This document shows positions 4,964 through 18,293 of a stretch of DNA of 64,000 nt, in pieces. The notes beneath the pieces were generated by a model. It ran no database searches. It worked only from the letters and a program-made list of their open reading frames with translations, and was not told where the DNA came from. How positions within the stretch are numbered: the stretch's first letter is position 1; each line of letters starts with the position of its first letter. The stretch is from Micromonospora yasonensis (GTDB lineage: Bacteria; Actinomycetota; Actinomycetes; Mycobacteriales; Micromonosporaceae): the NCBI RefSeq assembly GCF_026013475.1, contig NZ_JAPDPH010000007.1:1-64000 (forward strand). Direction: 5' to 3'. A program made the position numbers and the translations under genes.

Positions 4964-5746
4964 ATGAACGCACACCGTATGGACCAGGAGACCGTCGAGC
5001 GCCTGCTCGTCGGTCCCGTCGCCCACGCGCCGGACGGTCCGGAGGTGCTCGTCCAGCTCCTCGCCGCCGTCCGCGCCGCCCCCCGACCGCACGAGCTGAG
5101 CGGTGAGGCGGCTGCCCTCCAGGCGTTCCGCCTGGCGCGAGCCGGATCGGCGCCGGTGCTGGCCGCCCGTCCCGGCCGACGGTTCCTGGCCGGCCTGCTC
5201 GGTGCCAAGGTCGCCCTGGCCGCGCTGGTCGCGGCCGCCACCGGCGGCGTGGCGCTGGCCGCCGTCACCGGCACGATGCCCGGCCCGTTGGGTCGCGACC
5301 CGGCCACCACGCCGGGCACCAGCACCACGAGCGGCCCCGCCCCCACGTCCGGCCCCAGCGCCTCCGGAACCCCGGGCGCGAACCGGACCGACGCGCCGGG
5401 CGGCACGCCCGCCCTGGCCGGGCTCTGCATTGCCTACCGGAGCGAGCCGGACGAGAGCCGGCGCCAGGCGCTGGAGTCCCCGCGCTTCGCGGAGCTGGTC
5501 ACGGCAGCGGGTGGTCGGGAGAAGGTCGCCAGCTACTGCAACCGGCTGCTGGACAGGCCGGGCAAGCCGAGCGGGTCCACCGGCGGCGAGACGAAGCGAC
5601 CGGACGCCGAGCCGAGCGGCCGGGTCACCGGCAAACCGGAGCGCACCCCCGCCCCAGCGGTCACCGTCACGCCGACCTCGCAACCGTCCGGTCCGGCGGG
5701 TCCGGCCGGGAACCAGCCCGCCTCGATCGGCCCGACCCGGCACTGA
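4964..5746 (+). CDS. Membrane-anchored hypothetical protein with Pro/Thr-rich extracytoplasmic tail
   Basis: A 260-residue protein of anti-sigma-like layout. The cytoplasmic part (1-72) has helices such as ETVERLLVGP and VLVQLLAAVRAAP. One membrane segment lies around 75-100. A long Pro/Thr/Ser/Gly-rich extracytoplasmic region is interrupted by a short ordered patch (AGLCIAYRSEPDESRRQALE up to VASYCNRLLDRPG) with two Cys that could form a disulfide. No sigma factor gene is adjacent, so calling it an anti-sigma factor would be guesswork. The 3' end runs through a 19-bp duplication and then a strong terminator. Confidence 0.65.
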   Translation: MNAHRMDQETVERLLVGPVAHAPDGPEVLVQLLAAVRAAPRPHELSGEAAALQAFRLARAGSAPVLAARPGRRFLAGLLGAKVALAALVAAATGGVALAAVTGTMPGPLGRDPATTPGTSTTSGPAPTSGPSASGTPGANRTDAPGGTPALAGLCIAYRSEPDESRRQALESPRFAELVTAAGGREKVASYCNRLLDRPGKPSGSTGGETKRPDAEPSGRVTGKPERTPAPAVTVTPTSQPSGPAGPAGNQPASIGPTRH

Positions 5747-5765
5747 GATCGGCCCGACCCGGCAC
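5725..5765 (+). repeat. 19-bp direct duplication spanning a stop codon
   Basis: The 19 bases at 5725-5743 recur exactly at 5747-5765 (period 22). The TGA of the upstream gene (5744-5746) sits between the two copies. This looks like replication slippage at the gene end. Confidence 0.8.
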
Positions 5766-5782
5766 CGAGCGGTGCCGGACCG

Positions 5783-5824
5783 GCCTCGGCCGTGCCGACC
5801 CGGGCGGGTCGGCACGGCCGAGGC
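5783..5824. terminator. Bidirectional terminator hairpin, 19-bp perfect stem
   Basis: Arms 5783-5801 and 5806-5824 are exactly complementary with a GGGC loop. The hairpin lies between the convergent gene at 4964-5746 and the subtilisin gene ending at 5833, so it can stop transcription from both sides. There is no U-tract, as is common in actinomycetes. Confidence 0.8.
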
Positions 5825-5832
5825 GTCGACGG

Positions 5833-7050
5833 TCAGAACGTGGCCACGTTCAGCAGCTTCTCCTGGATGCCGTCCGGGTCGCCGGCCGGCCAGCTGTAGT
5901 TGGTCGTACCGGCCGCCTGGAGGGCCGACTTGACCGCGCTCGGCGTGGCCGTCGGGTGGGTCGCCTTGTAGAGCGCGGCGCCACCGGCGACGTGCGGGCT
6001 GGCCATCGAGGTACCGGAGATGGTGTTGTAGGCGCCGCCCTTCCAGGTCGAGTAGATGCAGACACCCGGAGCCATCAGGTCGACGTCGGCGCCGTAGTTG
6101 GAGAAGTCGGCGATGGTGTCGTCGACGTCGGTGCGGCAGGTGGGCGCCGCGCCGCCGCCCGGCAGACCGTTGAAGTCGGCCAGCGCGGAAACGGTGATGA
6201 CCTCGTCGTACGCGGCCGGCACGTGGTTGGCCGCGTTGTCGGTCTCGTTGCCGGCGGCCACGACGTAGGTCACGCCGGCCGCGACCGACTTGCAGATCGC
6301 CTCGTGCATCGCGTCCTTGTTGCTGCCGCAGGCGCTGTCGGAACCGGAGCCGCCGAGGCTCATGTTGGCGACCTCGATCTCGCTGGCGTGCGCCGTCACG
6401 TAGTCGATGCCGCAGATGATGTCGGAGAAGGTCCCACTGCCGGCGTTGTTGAGCACCCGGACCGGCCAGACCCGGGCGCCCGGGGCCATACCGACCGCGC
6501 CGATGCCGTTGTCCAGCGCGCCGATGGTGCCCGCTACGTGCGAGCCGTGGCCGTTGCCGTCGTTGGCGCTGTTGCCGGTGGAGCAGTTCTTCGCGCCGGC
6601 GGTGTAGACGTTGAGGTCGGGGTGGGTCAGGTCGATGCCGGTGTCGATGACGGCGACGTCGACGTTCACCCGCTCATCCGCGCCGTCGATCTTCGCGGTC
6701 GGGCTCAGTTCCGCGTCGGCCCGGTTGATGCCGGTCGGCGTGGTCTGGGCGTCGGCCGTCGCCACCCTGTCGGGCTGGACGAAGAGCACCCGCGAGTCGC
6801 GGGCGATGCGAGCCGCGGCGGTGGCGCTCATCCGGGCCGAGTAGCCACGCAGGGCGTGCTCGTAGACGTGGCCCACGGTGGCGCCGGTCGCCCGAGCCTG
6901 CTCGGCGGCGACCGACGACGAGTTCGCGTCGGCGCGGAGTACGACGATGTAGCCGGTCTGCACCTCGGCCCGTGGGGCGGCGGTGGCGCCGGTGGCCGAG
7001 GCGGCGACGACGATGCCGGTGAGCATCGCGACGCCCAGTGTCTTGCGCAT
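5833..7050 (-). CDS. Secreted S8 family subtilisin-like serine protease
   Basis: A 405-residue extracellular protease. A signal peptide covers residues 1-24 (MRKTLG, hydrophobic core, ATAAP). An I9 propeptide/inhibitor domain (about 32-95) contains YIVVLRADAN and RVLFVQPD. The peptidase domain has catalytic Asp136 in VAVIDTGID, His168 in NGHGSHVAGT, oxyanion Asn268 in VAAGNETD and Ser348 in SGTSMASPHVAGG, so the triad is complete. ATG 7050 has GGAGAGGA upstream; the in-frame extension before it is not signal-like. It is divergent from the shbA operon, across an AT-rich patch at 7137-7171 that probably holds the promoter. Confidence 0.95.
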   Translation of the reverse strand: MRKTLGVAMLTGIVVAASATGATAAPRAEVQTGYIVVLRADANSSSVAAEQARATGATVGHVYEHALRGYSARMSATAAARIARDSRVLFVQPDRVATADAQTTPTGINRADAELSPTAKIDGADERVNVDVAVIDTGIDLTHPDLNVYTAGAKNCSTGNSANDGNGHGSHVAGTIGALDNGIGAVGMAPGARVWPVRVLNNAGSGTFSDIICGIDYVTAHASEIEVANMSLGGSGSDSACGSNKDAMHEAICKSVAAGVTYVVAAGNETDNAANHVPAAYDEVITVSALADFNGLPGGGAAPTCRTDVDDTIADFSNYGADVDLMAPGVCIYSTWKGGAYNTISGTSMASPHVAGGAALYKATHPTATPSAVKSALQAAGTTNYSWPAGDPDGIQEKLLNVATF

Positions 7051-14824: not shown

Positions 14825-14886
14825 GTAACGGGCCGGCGTGGCCGTTCCGCCAGTCAGGCCTACACTTGCCAGATGAGGCAGACCTG

Positions 14887-15714
14887 GTGACCAGCGGAAG
14901 CACGCCGGCCACGGCCTACGGTCACGTCTGCCTGGCGTACGACGACCCGGCCGGGCTCGACGCCTGGGCAGTGGGGTACCTCGCAGCCGGGCTCGCCGCC
15001 GGCGAGCGGGTCGCCCTGATCGCCCCGGGCGCGCCGGACGAACTGGCCCGCCGGCTGGACCGGCTGCCCGGCCGCGACGCCGCGCTGCGCCAGGGCGCCT
15101 TGCGACTCCTCTCCGTCGCGCAGATGTACCGCTCCGGCGGGGTCGTCGACCCGCAGGCCCAGGTCCGGGTGTACGACGCCGCCACCGAGGAGGCGCTGGC
15201 CGCCGGCTACACCGGGCTGCGGGTGGTGGCCGAGGCGACCACGCTCGTCCGCACCGCCGCCCAGCGCGACACCTTCGCCCGCTACGAGCACCTGATGGAC
15301 CACTACATCCGCCGCCGGCCGCTGTCGGTGACCTGCGCGTACGACCGGCGGGAGCTGGGCGGCCCCGCGATCGCGGAGCTGGCCTGCCTGCACCCGGAGA
15401 CCAATGCGGAGGTGCTGTTCCGGCTGCACGCGGCGACCGGCGAGACGGTTGTCGCGCTCGGCGGCGAGCTGGACCCGTCCAACGACCGGCTCTTCGCCGC
15501 CGCCCTCGACCGGGCCGATCCGCGGGGTGTCGACGGCCGGTTGCTGGTCGACGCGACCGGGCTGCGCTTCGTCGACCACCGCAACCTGCTGCACCTGCGT
15601 GACCACGCGCGCCGGCACGGCGCCGACGTCGTGCTGCGCACCTCCCGGTCCGCGGTCGGCCGACTGGTCGAGCTGCTGGACCTCCCGGAGGTCCGGGTCG
15701 AGGTGGGGCGATGA
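14887..15714 (+). CDS. MEDS-STAS sensory protein (anti-sigma-factor-antagonist-like)
   Basis: A 275-residue protein. The N-terminal MEDS domain (about 10-175) starts HVCLAYDDPAGLDAWAVGYL, followed by AAGERVALIAPG and, near its end, a YEHLMDHYIRRRPLSVTCAY segment. The C-terminal STAS-like domain (about 190-275) has VVALGGELDPSNDRLFAAAL, LLVDATGLRFVDHRNLLHL and ADVVLRTSRSAVGRLVELL. The usual phosphorylatable Ser of SpoIIAA-type STAS (D-x-S-G) is replaced around DHRN. GTG 14887 has GATGAGG upstream, and TACACT at 14861 is a possible -10. The stop overlaps the ATG of the MEDS-HATPase gene, which suggests a partner-switching pair. Confidence 0.8.
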   Translation: MTSGSTPATAYGHVCLAYDDPAGLDAWAVGYLAAGLAAGERVALIAPGAPDELARRLDRLPGRDAALRQGALRLLSVAQMYRSGGVVDPQAQVRVYDAATEEALAAGYTGLRVVAEATTLVRTAAQRDTFARYEHLMDHYIRRRPLSVTCAYDRRELGGPAIAELACLHPETNAEVLFRLHAATGETVVALGGELDPSNDRLFAAALDRADPRGVDGRLLVDATGLRFVDHRNLLHLRDHARRHGADVVLRTSRSAVGRLVELLDLPEVRVEVGR

Positions 15715-16673
15715 GGACCGGCGCCGCGGCCGGGCACGTCGGCTACTACCACGAGGCGGTCTGCTACGACTCCGAGGAGCACCTGCTCGCCGTGGTGGTG
15801 CCGTTCCTGCTCGCCGGGGTCGAAGCCGGCGAACCCACGCTGGTGGGTCTCGGCGAACACAACGCGGAACTGGTCCGCCGGGCCCTTCCCGCCGACTCCG
15901 GGGTGGCCTTCCTGCCCGGTGGCGACCTCTACGCCCGCCCGGCCGCCGCGATCAGGGCGTACCGGACGCTGCTGGCCGGACACGTCGCCGAGGGCGCGGA
16001 GCAGATCCGGATCGTCGGCGAGCTGCCGGCTGCCGTCCTCGGCGCGACCTGGGACTGGTGGGCCCGCTACGAGTCGGCCATCAACCACGCGTACGACGAC
16101 TTCCCACTGTGGAGCATGTGCGCGTACGACACCCGGACCACCGCACCGCAGGTGCTGGCGGACGTGGCACGCACCCATCCCCGGACGGCCCGGCCGGACG
16201 GCAGTCACGTGCCCACCGGGTGCTACACCGAACCCGCGAGCTACCTGGCGGAACGACGGCCGGTGCGGCTCGACCCGGTGCAGCGGGCCGCGCCGGTGCT
16301 CGAGCTGACCGACCCGACCCCGGCCGAGGCCCGCGCCGCCGTCCGGGCCGCCGACCGGGGGCAGCTCCCGGCCGACGAGGTCGAGGACCTGATGGTGGCG
16401 GTCAGTGAAATCGTGACCAACGCGCTGCGGCACGGTGACGGACCGGCCCGGATCCGGCTGTGGAGCGGCCCGGACCGGATCGTGGTGACCGTGCACGACC
16501 GCGGGGCCGGCCCGAAGGACCCGTACGCCGGCCTGCTGCCGGCGGGCAACGGCGCGTCCGGCGGCCTCGGGTTGTGGATCAGCCACCAGTCCTGCAACCA
16601 TGTGGCGCTGCACCAGGACGACGGCGGCTTCACCGTCCGGCTGACCGCGGGGAACCCGCACTTCCCGGTCTGA
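15711..16673 (+). CDS. MEDS-HATPase anti-sigma-type serine kinase
   Basis: A 320-residue protein. An N-terminal MEDS domain (about 8-175; GYYHEAVCYDSEEHLLAVVV, AGVEAGEPTLVGLG, then WWARYESAINHAYDDFPLW) is joined to a C-terminal HATPase_c domain (about 210-318). The kinase part shows the N-box VAVSEIVTNALRHGDGPAR, the G1 box VHDRGAGPKDPY, and a G2-like GNGASGGLGLWISHQSCN. This is the RsbW/SpoIIAB-like class seen in Streptomyces. The 4-nt overlap with the MEDS-STAS gene makes a sensor-fused anti-sigma/antagonist couple. The sigma factor target is not encoded next to it. Confidence 0.85.
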   Translation: MRTGAAAGHVGYYHEAVCYDSEEHLLAVVVPFLLAGVEAGEPTLVGLGEHNAELVRRALPADSGVAFLPGGDLYARPAAAIRAYRTLLAGHVAEGAEQIRIVGELPAAVLGATWDWWARYESAINHAYDDFPLWSMCAYDTRTTAPQVLADVARTHPRTARPDGSHVPTGCYTEPASYLAERRPVRLDPVQRAAPVLELTDPTPAEARAAVRAADRGQLPADEVEDLMVAVSEIVTNALRHGDGPARIRLWSGPDRIVVTVHDRGAGPKDPYAGLLPAGNGASGGLGLWISHQSCNHVALHQDDGGFTVRLTAGNPHFPV

Positions 16674-16829: not shown

Positions 16830-18293
16830 ATGTCCAACGGCGAGGAACCGTTCGCACCGCACGACGACGTGTCCGGGCGGCCGAGGTTCGAGACGGCGTT
16901 GCGTGGCTACGACAAACGCCAGGTGGACCGGTACGTCGAGCAGCTGGACGGCGAACTGTCCGCAGTGGTGGCCGGCCGGGACCGGGCGTACGCGCAGGCG
17001 CGGGAGCTGACCGCGCAGCTGCAGCGGGTCCAGGCCGAGGCGGCCGAGCTGCGGCAACGGCCGGCGGAGGTGGACCGGGCGTCCTTCCGCGACCTCGGCC
17101 CGATGGTCGACCAGATCCTCGACCTGGCCGAGCGGCAGGCCGGGCAGATCGCCGAGACCGCCGGCAAGCGGGCCGCCGACCTGCAGGCCCAGGCCGAGAA
17201 GGTGCTGGCCACCGCCCAGGAGGAGGCGGCCCGGGAGCGGCGTGAGCTGGAGGAGGAGCTGTCCCACCGCCGCGCCGAGGCGGAGCGGGCGGACGAGGAG
17301 CGGCGGACCGCCGCGCAGGCGGAGCTGACCGCGATCCGGGAGCTGGCGGAGAAACTGCGGTCGGAGGGGCAGGCCGCTCACGAGCGGGCACAGCAGGAGG
17401 CGAAACGGATCGCCGAGCAGAGCACCCAGCAGGTGGAGCAGGCCCGGTCGGCGTCGGAGGCGCTGGTGAAGGCGGCCCGCACCCAGATCCAGCAGGAGGT
17501 ACAGGCCACCCGGAGCAAGGCCCAGCAGGAGCTGGCCCAGTGGCAGGCCACCATGGCCCGCGAGCTGGACGAGCGGCGGGCCGCCGCCGAGCAGGAGCTG
17601 GCCGACCGGGCCAGCGCCGCCGAGCGGGACATCGCCGCCCTGGTCGCCGAGGCCCAGCAGTACGCCACCGAGGTCCGCGAACGGGCCGACGAGGAGACCG
17701 CGTCCCACCAGGAGCAGCTGTCCACCGTGCAGCAGGAGATCCAGCAGCGGCAGGAGACGCTGGCGCAGCTGCAGGCCGAGCTGGACACCGTCGCCAAGGA
17801 GCTGGAGCGAAGCCAGCAGGAGATCGGGACGGTCGAGCGGGAGGGCGCCGCGCTGGAGGAGCGGCTGGTCGAGGTGCGCCGGGAGCTGGCCGCCGAGACC
17901 AAGCGACTGGACGACGCGCGCCGCGCGGCGGACCTGGCCGAGCAGCATGCCAAGGAGACCCGGGCCCGGGTGCAGCGGGAGGCGAAGCGGGTCGCCGACC
18001 TGGCCGCGGCGGCGGTCATGGCGGCCGCCGCGGGCGGCGCGGAGACCGCCGAGTACCCGATGGTGACGGCGCGAACGCTGGACGAGCCGGTGGTTACCGC
18101 GTCGGCGGAGCGTCCCGCCGTACCCGCTGCGGAGCGACCTGCCCTGGAGGCCGTCCCCGAGCGGCCGGCGCTGGACGGTCCCAGCTTCAACGCGTTCGCG
18201 GTTCGCCCGCCGGCCCCGCGGCACGCCCCGGAGGTGGAGATCACCGGCGAACTTACCGCCGGCCCGGACACCGGGATCCCGGCCAACGCCTGA
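16830..18293 (+). CDS. DivIVA-like long coiled-coil protein
   Basis: A 487-residue protein. An N-terminal DivIVA-type segment (about 15-55; FETALRGYDKRQVDRYVEQL) precedes a nearly continuous coiled coil from about 45 to 400, rich in Glu, Gln, Arg and Ala. The C-terminal ~100 residues are Pro/Ala-rich and probably disordered. Actinobacterial DivIVA relatives and FilP/Scy-type proteins organise polar growth and the cytoskeleton; that role is inferred. ATG 16830 follows GGAGGATGGCGA. The gene has a strong 14-bp terminator just after it. Confidence 0.8.
   Translation: MSNGEEPFAPHDDVSGRPRFETALRGYDKRQVDRYVEQLDGELSAVVAGRDRAYAQARELTAQLQRVQAEAAELRQRPAEVDRASFRDLGPMVDQILDLAERQAGQIAETAGKRAADLQAQAEKVLATAQEEAARERRELEEELSHRRAEAERADEERRTAAQAELTAIRELAEKLRSEGQAAHERAQQEAKRIAEQSTQQVEQARSASEALVKAARTQIQQEVQATRSKAQQELAQWQATMARELDERRAAAEQELADRASAAERDIAALVAEAQQYATEVRERADEETASHQEQLSTVQQEIQQRQETLAQLQAELDTVAKELERSQQEIGTVEREGAALEERLVEVRRELAAETKRLDDARRAADLAEQHAKETRARVQREAKRVADLAAAAVMAAAAGGAETAEYPMVTARTLDEPVVTASAERPAVPAAERPALEAVPERPALDGPSFNAFAVRPPAPRHAPEVEITGELTAGPDTGIPANA

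Follow-up and report, generated by a model that had tools for sequence, protein, structure and literature searches.

Two overlapping genes lie on the forward strand of a 64,000-nucleotide stretch of contig NZ_JAPDPH010000007.1 from Micromonospora yasonensis; the whole stretch is here called the window. The first gene, called A, encodes a protein in which a MEDS domain is followed by a STAS domain. The second, called B, encodes a protein in which a MEDS domain is followed by a HATPase domain. Such genes bring partner switching to mind. This is, of course, a textbook form of regulation, in which a kinase that is also an anti-sigma factor phosphorylates its own antagonist. The MEDS domain, in turn, is known mostly from methanogens and from DcmR.

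The couple and its conservation

The domains of the two proteins were assigned with Pfam and NCBIfam. In A, MEDS covers residues 13-170 (E 6e-42) and STAS_2 residues 189-266 (E 2e-9); in B, MEDS covers residues 14-157 (E 9e-28) and HATPase_c_2 residues 206-312 (E 1.3e-18). Both pass the curated cut-off of PF14417 (29.8 bits), A with 143.6 bits and B with 97.5. Protein B also matches NCBIfam NF041045, named RsbA_anti_sig, over its full length, with 305.3 bits against a cut-off of 210 and with positions 1-302 of the 303 in the model covered. This model describes B only, the MEDS-STAS partner being no part of it; A gives a weak match of 59 bits against the same cut-off. RsbA of Streptomyces coelicolor is an RsbW homologue encoded in a sigB operon. 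Elsewhere in the 7.7-Mb genome of the organism, no further MEDS match was found at E 0.001.

These assignments bear out a preliminary description of this DNA, which had read the pair, from its letters, as a MEDS-STAS and MEDS-HATPase couple of antagonist and anti-sigma type with an overlap of four nucleotides (nt; Table 1). That description had also singled out the STAS fold of A as the point on which its reading would stand or fall. Here, the STAS_2 match is joined by structure prediction. The AlphaFold models are confident (mean predicted local distance difference test, pLDDT, 93.1 for A and 93.6 for B), and Foldseek places the C-terminal half of the A model with SpoIIAA structures 1tid, 1til and 1th8; the STAS profile of A matches 1th8_B at E 0.007. 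The C-terminal half of the B model resembles SpoIIAB 1til_E (Z 14.0, 3.3 Å, 123 residues aligned) and also RsbW (6m36) and the mycobacterial UsfX (8jzt, 8ih8). By sequence, the proteins of solved structure closest to B are RsbW and SpoIIAB. In Bacillus, the STAS gene stands directly before the HATPase gene. The window's pair is like SpoIIAA-SpoIIAB and RsbV-RsbW of Bacillus in this order and in the STAS and HATPase folds.

Table 1. Positions, in the window, of the couple, its domains and the region before it (aa, amino acids; ORF, open reading frame)
Feature	Position	Strand	Basis
Gene A, MEDS-STAS, GTG start, 275 aa	14887-15714	+	ORF translation, Pfam, conserved relatives
Gene B, MEDS-HATPase, ATG start, 320 aa, NCBIfam RsbA_anti_sig	15711-16673	+	Pfam, NCBIfam
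ATGA, 4-nt overlap of the A stop and the B start	15711-15714	+	sequence
MEDS domain of A, predicted KaiC/FlaH RecA-like fold without Walker A	14923-15396	+	PF14417, model
STAS domain of A	15451-15684	+	Pfam, SpoIIAA match
D196 of A, in the STAS domain	15472-15474	+	profile alignment
D230-H231-R232 of A, Asp-His-Arg replacing Asp-Ser-Ser	15574-15582	+	profile alignment
MEDS domain of B, predicted RecA/KaiC-like fold without Walker A	15750-16181	+	PF14417, model
HATPase domain of B; N-box E233/N237, G1 D263, G2 G285/G287	16326-16646	+	SpoIIAB/RsbW match
R208 of B, in the HATPase domain	16332-16334	+	alignment to SpoIIAB
TACACT, -10-like box, conserved in Micromonosporaceae	14861-14866	+	regions upstream of A in relatives
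5-codon mini-ORF, ATG...TGA, its stop overlapping the GTG of A by 4 nt; holds a GAGG motif like a ribosome-binding site	14873-14890	+	

A fair test of the pairing requires a set of relatives picked by A alone. For this, 22 A proteins were aligned, the alignment was used to scan GTDB contigs, and the best 80 of the 150 relatives obtained were kept. They come from Micromonospora, Plantactinospora, Actinoplanes, Saccharothrix, Amycolatopsis, Lentzea, Pseudonocardia, Kribbella, Nocardioides, Nocardia and others, distributed over five named families of actinomycetes; the closest named relatives of A are from Micromonospora, at an identity of 79% at best. A B gene stands beside A in all 80 of those kept, and the two overlap by 4 nt in 75, so the arrangement goes beyond chance. 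The remaining five have spacings of -1 in two cases, +6 in a fragment, +12 in one and -322 in one, where the start is probably miscalled.

A second set, mostly chosen because a pair was visible, shows an overlap of -4 in 56 of 59 pairs, the window's pair counted. Its loci (53 chosen for a visible pair, 7 for a suspected one) were taken from 150 and 145 source rows among the matches listed, with five rows of genomes already included being omitted, and L036 and L055 were excluded as incomplete. The overlap is retained even in diverged pairs that are 23-35% identical to the window's. Exceptions in this set are a broken B (L030), a gap of +4 (L033) and a reversed order (L049); in the last, at 4983-6844 of its locus, the MEDS-HATPase gene comes first and a 4-nt overlap is still present. 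Another locus (L050) has a second MEDS-STAS gene after B. A 964-aa open frame in L036 was considered as a natural fusion of A and B, but its STAS part is seemingly out of frame; it was read as a frameshift and not counted.

The genes that flank the pair vary between groups of relatives. Thus, the two genes have stayed together as their surroundings changed. Within the genus, at least 74 of 121 genomes have a MEDS match, and this type of A is present in 58 of the 121, in a single copy in each. Two further lines of evidence were tried and set aside. A phylum-wide search for A (A3, E 1e-15) gave matches in 24 of 396 genomes. Of the 28 matches listed, however, 22 end by model position 185; these matches cover little beyond MEDS, and the number is therefore not used as a census of A. 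The trees of A and B are partly incongruent, and coevolution is not used as proof of pairing.

Docking residues and the acceptor site

What a STAS protein and a HATPase protein need in order to meet can be taken from the RsbV-RsbW crystal structure. There (PMC7340262), Arg23 of RsbW bonds to Asp23 of RsbV, Glu49 of RsbW touches Ser56 of RsbV, which is the phospho-acceptor, and the clash with the sigma factor falls at Glu21 of RsbV. Correspondences to A and B were made via alignments with SpoIIAA and SpoIIAB, where R20 and E46 of SpoIIAB were taken as R23 and E49 of RsbW (a common offset of three). Counts refer to 138 A rows, of which 125 are distinct, and 136 B rows, of which 123 are distinct, some contigs being from the same genomes; the fragment L128 was excluded from both, and L106 and L030 from the B counts.

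The docking residues are kept. At the position of RsbV Asp23, A has D196 in 138/138. At that of RsbW Arg23, B has R208 in 136/136, aligned with SpoIIAB R20. The kinase glutamate (E233 of B, at the position of RsbW Glu49) is likewise present in 136/136, and E194 of A, at the position of RsbV Glu21, is E in 113/138. The couple is therefore like RsbV-RsbW in its docking pair and its kinase glutamate, and mostly so in the glutamate of the sigma clash. The GHKL ATP site of B is also intact, with N237 in 135/136, D263 in 132/136, G285 in 135/136 and G287 in 136/136.

The acceptor is another matter. A profile alignment sets D230-H231-R232-N233 of A against D57-S58-S59-G60 of SpoIIAA. Across the 138 A proteins, the residue at the position of Ser58 is H in 110, V in 15, A in 7, L in 3, Y in 2 and M in 1, and it is Ser or Thr in none; the complete D-H-R is found in 93. 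The suggestion made from the letters, that DHRN stands where the canonical serine would be, thus proves correct for the window and extends to the relatives. Judged from these alignments, all of the checked contact residues of SpoIIAA:SpoIIAB type are present except the acceptor, with a histidine mostly predicted opposite E233. In lacking the phospho-serine, and in carrying MEDS on both halves, the couple is unlike SpoIIAA-SpoIIAB and RsbV-RsbW.

As a control on the reading of this site, STAS rows from the organism's own genome were aligned; S follows D in 10 of 20, a number that includes the window row and some poorly aligned ones. A second control comes from two loci (L151 and L152) where a HATPase-STAS protein reads D-S-T-G and the adjacent MEDS-STAS protein reads D-L-S-C. 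Here, the HATPase-STAS genes lie at 3419-4228 in L151 and 3436-4245 in L152, counted along the reverse strand; it is possible that this layout is an intermediate between phospho and non-phospho switches. The STAS-only partners of MEDS-HATPase in L153 and L154 read D-V-D-G and D-V-A-G. The acceptor serine is absent from these two and from every MEDS-carrying STAS that was read.

The two MEDS domains and the surroundings of the pair

The preliminary description had called the pair sensor-duplicated. The part of this that stands is that MEDS is present on both halves, with a common predicted fold and a conserved core. The part that does not is a recent duplication. The window's A-MEDS and B-MEDS are 32% identical (E 3e-13), and a tree of 56 domains, from 28 pairs hand-chosen for diversity, has a single branch (100% support in the Shimodaira-Hasegawa-like approximate likelihood ratio test, SH-aLRT) that parts all A-MEDS from all B-MEDS. 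Because the two lie on opposite sides of the tree, the sensor was not duplicated within recent pairs; the sequences suggest, instead, two subfamilies that split anciently. This, in turn, means that a shared ligand does not follow from the shared domain.

As modeled, MEDS has a fold like those of the RecA-like ATPases KaiC and FlaH. The A-MEDS model superposes on FlaH 4yds (Z 15.0, 3.1 Å, 160 aligned) and KaiC 4o0m (Z 14.7, 2.8 Å, 161 aligned), with identities to these chains of 6 and 12%. For the B-MEDS model, RecA/KaiC-type chains give Z of about 11, and PH0250 2ekd gives 12.3. A PDB search with the sequences of the MEDS parts matched nothing at E 0.1. The couple differs from KaiC and FlaH in the Walker A motif, GxxxxGK[ST], which is absent from both A and B in 139/139 pairs. 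Since the models are RecA/KaiC-like and Walker A is missing, MEDS appears to be a core of KaiC type whose P-loop has been lost.

Seven residues are conserved in both MEDS domains (A/B numbering, paired by alignment of the two: H13/H14, G35/G36, R112/R100, E134/E121, C150/C137, Y152/Y139 and H169/H156), and C15 is conserved in A-MEDS alone (134/138). One might guess that the histidines and cysteines are binding residues for a metal or a cofactor, or for a redox signal. By Pfam domain, as distinct from the sequence of DcmR itself, the N-terminal MEDS makes both proteins like DcmR and other MEDS sensors, from which they differ in their STAS and HATPase outputs. In Methanosarcina, MEDS proteins were predicted to be sensors of growth substrates (PMC1592074).

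MEDS is also found in other arrangements. MEDS matches not seen as pairs occur in 19 loci (a twentieth, L158, is a flank without a MEDS match). Two of these join a STAS-only protein to MEDS-HATPase (L153, L154), and three join MEDS-STAS to HATPase or HATPase-STAS (L147, L151, L152). In L155-L157 and L162, MEDS-HATPase occurs with no STAS found, and likewise in L161, where MEDS and HATPase lie in two frames. Eight of the 19 have MEDS with neither a STAS nor a HATPase partner domain. In relatives, then, MEDS may sit on the HATPase side, on the STAS side or on both. Open frames of 208-224 aa in L144, L145, L149 and L150, which match MEDS alone among four domain models, are possible free sensor modules.

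The type of B can be followed on a tree of A. It changes five times by parsimony, with at least three changes forced by supported branches, on what is a quick tree with long-branch warnings. If that tree is right, B would have been exchanged within the same gene layout.

A conserved feature also marks the start of A. In Micromonosporaceae, the layout is a -10-like box (mostly TAGACT or TACACT), then about six bases, then an ORF of five codons that starts with ATG or GTG and whose stop, TGA, makes a 4-nt overlap with the start of A. Of 31 type I loci, 30 have both the box and the mini-ORF, a shift of the start by whole codons being allowed; in the best-80 set of A, both are present in 36 of 45 Micromonosporaceae loci and 0 of 35 others. 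In the background, scored with the same motif rule and with gene starts from a simple GC3-based caller, none of 528 neighbouring genes and none of 2234 in-frame start codons had both elements, and 7 and 13, respectively, had the mini-ORF alone. The 14-nt spacing of the mini-ORF was, of course, fixed after the loci had been viewed, and the relatives are not independent; before whole-codon shifts were allowed, 61 of 111 rows had this spacing at the called start. On inspection, the peptide is not visibly conserved, and the same bases carry a G-rich motif like a ribosome-binding site, mostly GAGG or GGGG. One possible reading of these sequences is that the mini-ORF is leaderless and serves to load ribosomes for A.

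The neighbours of the pair differ between groups of relatives and were set aside as a clue to the signal. Downstream in the window (16830-18293) lies a gene for a coiled-coil-like protein that matches DivIVA weakly (E 2e-4, under the curated cut-off); counting the window, members of its family stand next to the pair in 12 loci. In four loci (L015, L019, L020, L040), the MEDS-STAS gene is immediately preceded, on its own strand, by a further short open frame that is HATPase-like; that of L019, the sole one tested with Pfam, matches HATPase_c_2 at E 1.2e-6. In L007 (3394-4245), a zf-HC2 zinc-finger gene precedes the pair on the same strand, and its family recurs in a few loci. The zf-HC2 domain occurs in some anti-sigma factors. 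Among 20 neighbouring genes that were scanned, the L019 HATPase and the L007 zf-HC2 bear on sigma control, and that of L050 is the second MEDS-STAS gene; the others are enzymes, other regulators or unassigned.

Mechanism, target and alternatives

The reading preferred here, to which we give a probability of about 0.5, is that A and B form an antagonist couple like SpoIIAA:SpoIIAB, in which the usual site is not phosphorylated and the target is most likely a sigma factor of SigB/F/G type. The two proteins would be made together, as stoichiometric partners, from their overlapping genes. By analogy, the STAS domain of A would dock on the HATPase domain of B as SpoIIAA does on SpoIIAB, with a predicted contact between D196 of A and R208 of B. 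B would bring an intact ATP site and its kinase glutamate, and A no usual acceptor serine, so that E233 would face H231. Because A lacks that serine, the usual phosphorylation is not open to B as a means of inactivating A. This, together with the overlap of the genes, makes the bound state, A holding B, probably the default. Release would then probably depend on the MEDS domain of A, of B or of both, and on the nucleotide that B carries. Once free, B would bind and silence a target of its own, which is most likely a sigma factor of SigB/F/G type whose gene lies elsewhere. We infer the A:B contact and the phosphorylation-free logic; the identity of the sigma target, the ligand and the direction of the signal are guesses.

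The organism has three SigBFG sigma genes above the family cut-off, all on other contigs, with no SigBFG match on the contig of the window (C489). One protein encoded elsewhere in the genome (contig C334, 71874-72878, minus strand) has a SigBFG sigma domain and then STAS, seemingly in one open frame of 502 aa, on the plan of sigma-SsdA; it is a possible partner for B. The couple is like sigma-SsdA/SipA of Actinoplanes missouriensis, from the same bacterial family, in that sigma and anti-sigma domains are rewired. It is unlike that system in its parts, which are sigma-STAS and STAS-HATPase proteins there; the text on it mentions neither DcmR nor MEDS (PMC10733313).

Switching without a serine phosphate has precedents. 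RsfA of Mycobacterium is an anti-anti-sigma factor controlled by the redox state of two cysteines (PMC10950880); A would resemble it in being governed by something other than a serine switch, and would differ in that the control there is by cysteine redox. The text on RsfA makes no mention of MEDS. A stressosome strain with S59A still responds (PMC3944199). MSMEG_1787 of Mycobacterium smegmatis was considered as a precedent for MEDS-HATPase and dropped, the protein having 194 aa and just a 30-residue extension (PMC7693655).

Several observations weigh against the preferred reading, and most concern the target. No sigma gene was found among 20 scanned neighbours (19 from 17 relatives' loci and the window gene after B) or among 8 further neighbours in the window; for the window's pair, this makes 9 neighbours scanned without one, in which it is unlike an operon of spoIIA or sigB type. 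The sigma target thus rests on homology. A SigB/F-type autoregulatory promoter upstream of A was a candidate that had to be rejected, with 2 of 139 against 1.1 in shuffles. Moreover, RsbW3 of M. smegmatis, an RsbW homologue, binds RsbW1 and not SigF (PMC7693655), so a HATPase homologue that bears the name of an anti-sigma factor does not necessarily bind sigma. As to the couple itself, the conserved docking residues belong to wider families and are no proof that A binds this B, and the changes of B type on the A tree would mean that specificity within the pair was re-learned or is loose. In L160, a MEDS-STAS gene has no HATPase found within its 5.6-kb locus, and 63 of the 121 genomes of the genus lack a match to this A at E 1e-45.

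These points give some room to a rather different assignment, in which B is a switch kinase or adaptor like RsbT and A is an antagonist like RsbR that stores B until a signal arrives, whereupon B acts on a PP2C phosphatase, another STAS or another HATPase. The plan of A, an N-terminal sensor with a C-terminal STAS, is that of RsbR. The scanned genes beside the pair include no sigma gene, and the genome has many other STAS and HATPase matches upon which B might act. Two published findings also favor it: the stressosome signals without its phospho-sites (PMC3944199), and RsbW3 acts on another HATPase protein (PMC7693655). However, B is closest among solved structures to RsbW and SpoIIAB, its NCBIfam family is named for anti-sigma factors, no PP2C gene was found among the scanned neighbours, and one-to-one coupling would fit RsbV/RsbW better than a stressosome. 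The assignment is tentative, being well short of an even bet. Equally doubtful, and more radical, is a switch wholly free of phosphorylation, where paired KaiC-like MEDS domains without a P-loop read one signal on both sides and a lock of His231 with Glu233 replaces the phosphotransfer between Ser and Glu.

Phosphorylation might, alternatively, have moved, B phosphorylating A on H231 (as phospho-histidine) or on another residue. This would account for an ATP site and an E233 that are invariant, or nearly so, despite the lost serine, and for a histidine exactly at the Ser58 position in 110/138; the HATPase domains of histidine kinases do phosphorylate His. Yet the site holds V, A, L, Y or M in 28 of the 138, so His is not needed family-wide. 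Further, kinases of SpoIIAB type act on Ser and Thr, and in the SpoIIAB/RsbW family ATP binding by itself serves sigma binding. Such a move is unlikely. Still less likely is that this is an ordinary RsbV/RsbW pair whose serine decayed by drift and whose MEDS domains are passive modules for dimerisation. Both enzyme-like domains are, to be sure, otherwise canonical. But drift would hardly retain D-H-R in 93/138 A proteins and H231 in 110/138, or the invariant polar residues in the MEDS of both halves, or the overlap and gene order through changes of neighbourhood.

The SpoIIAA:SpoIIAB-like couple without its serine remains the preferred reading. The preliminary description was unaware of any such system that had been characterised, and this survives in part. 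In the open-licence papers searched, no description was found of an A-B couple with double MEDS, a lost serine and a KaiC-like sensor fold; the architecture of B, conversely, was already known as a named NCBIfam family. What appears new, as far as those papers go, is the couple with MEDS on both halves.

If the reading is right, a protein family found in several families of actinomycetes, with docking residues and ATP site retained and the acceptor serine lost, would separate binding from phosphorylation, which normally go together. This would allow one to ask directly how sensor domains alone gate a STAS:HATPase complex. It would also give MEDS a predicted KaiC-like fold without a P-loop, and a testable role in the control of sigma factors in actinomycetes.

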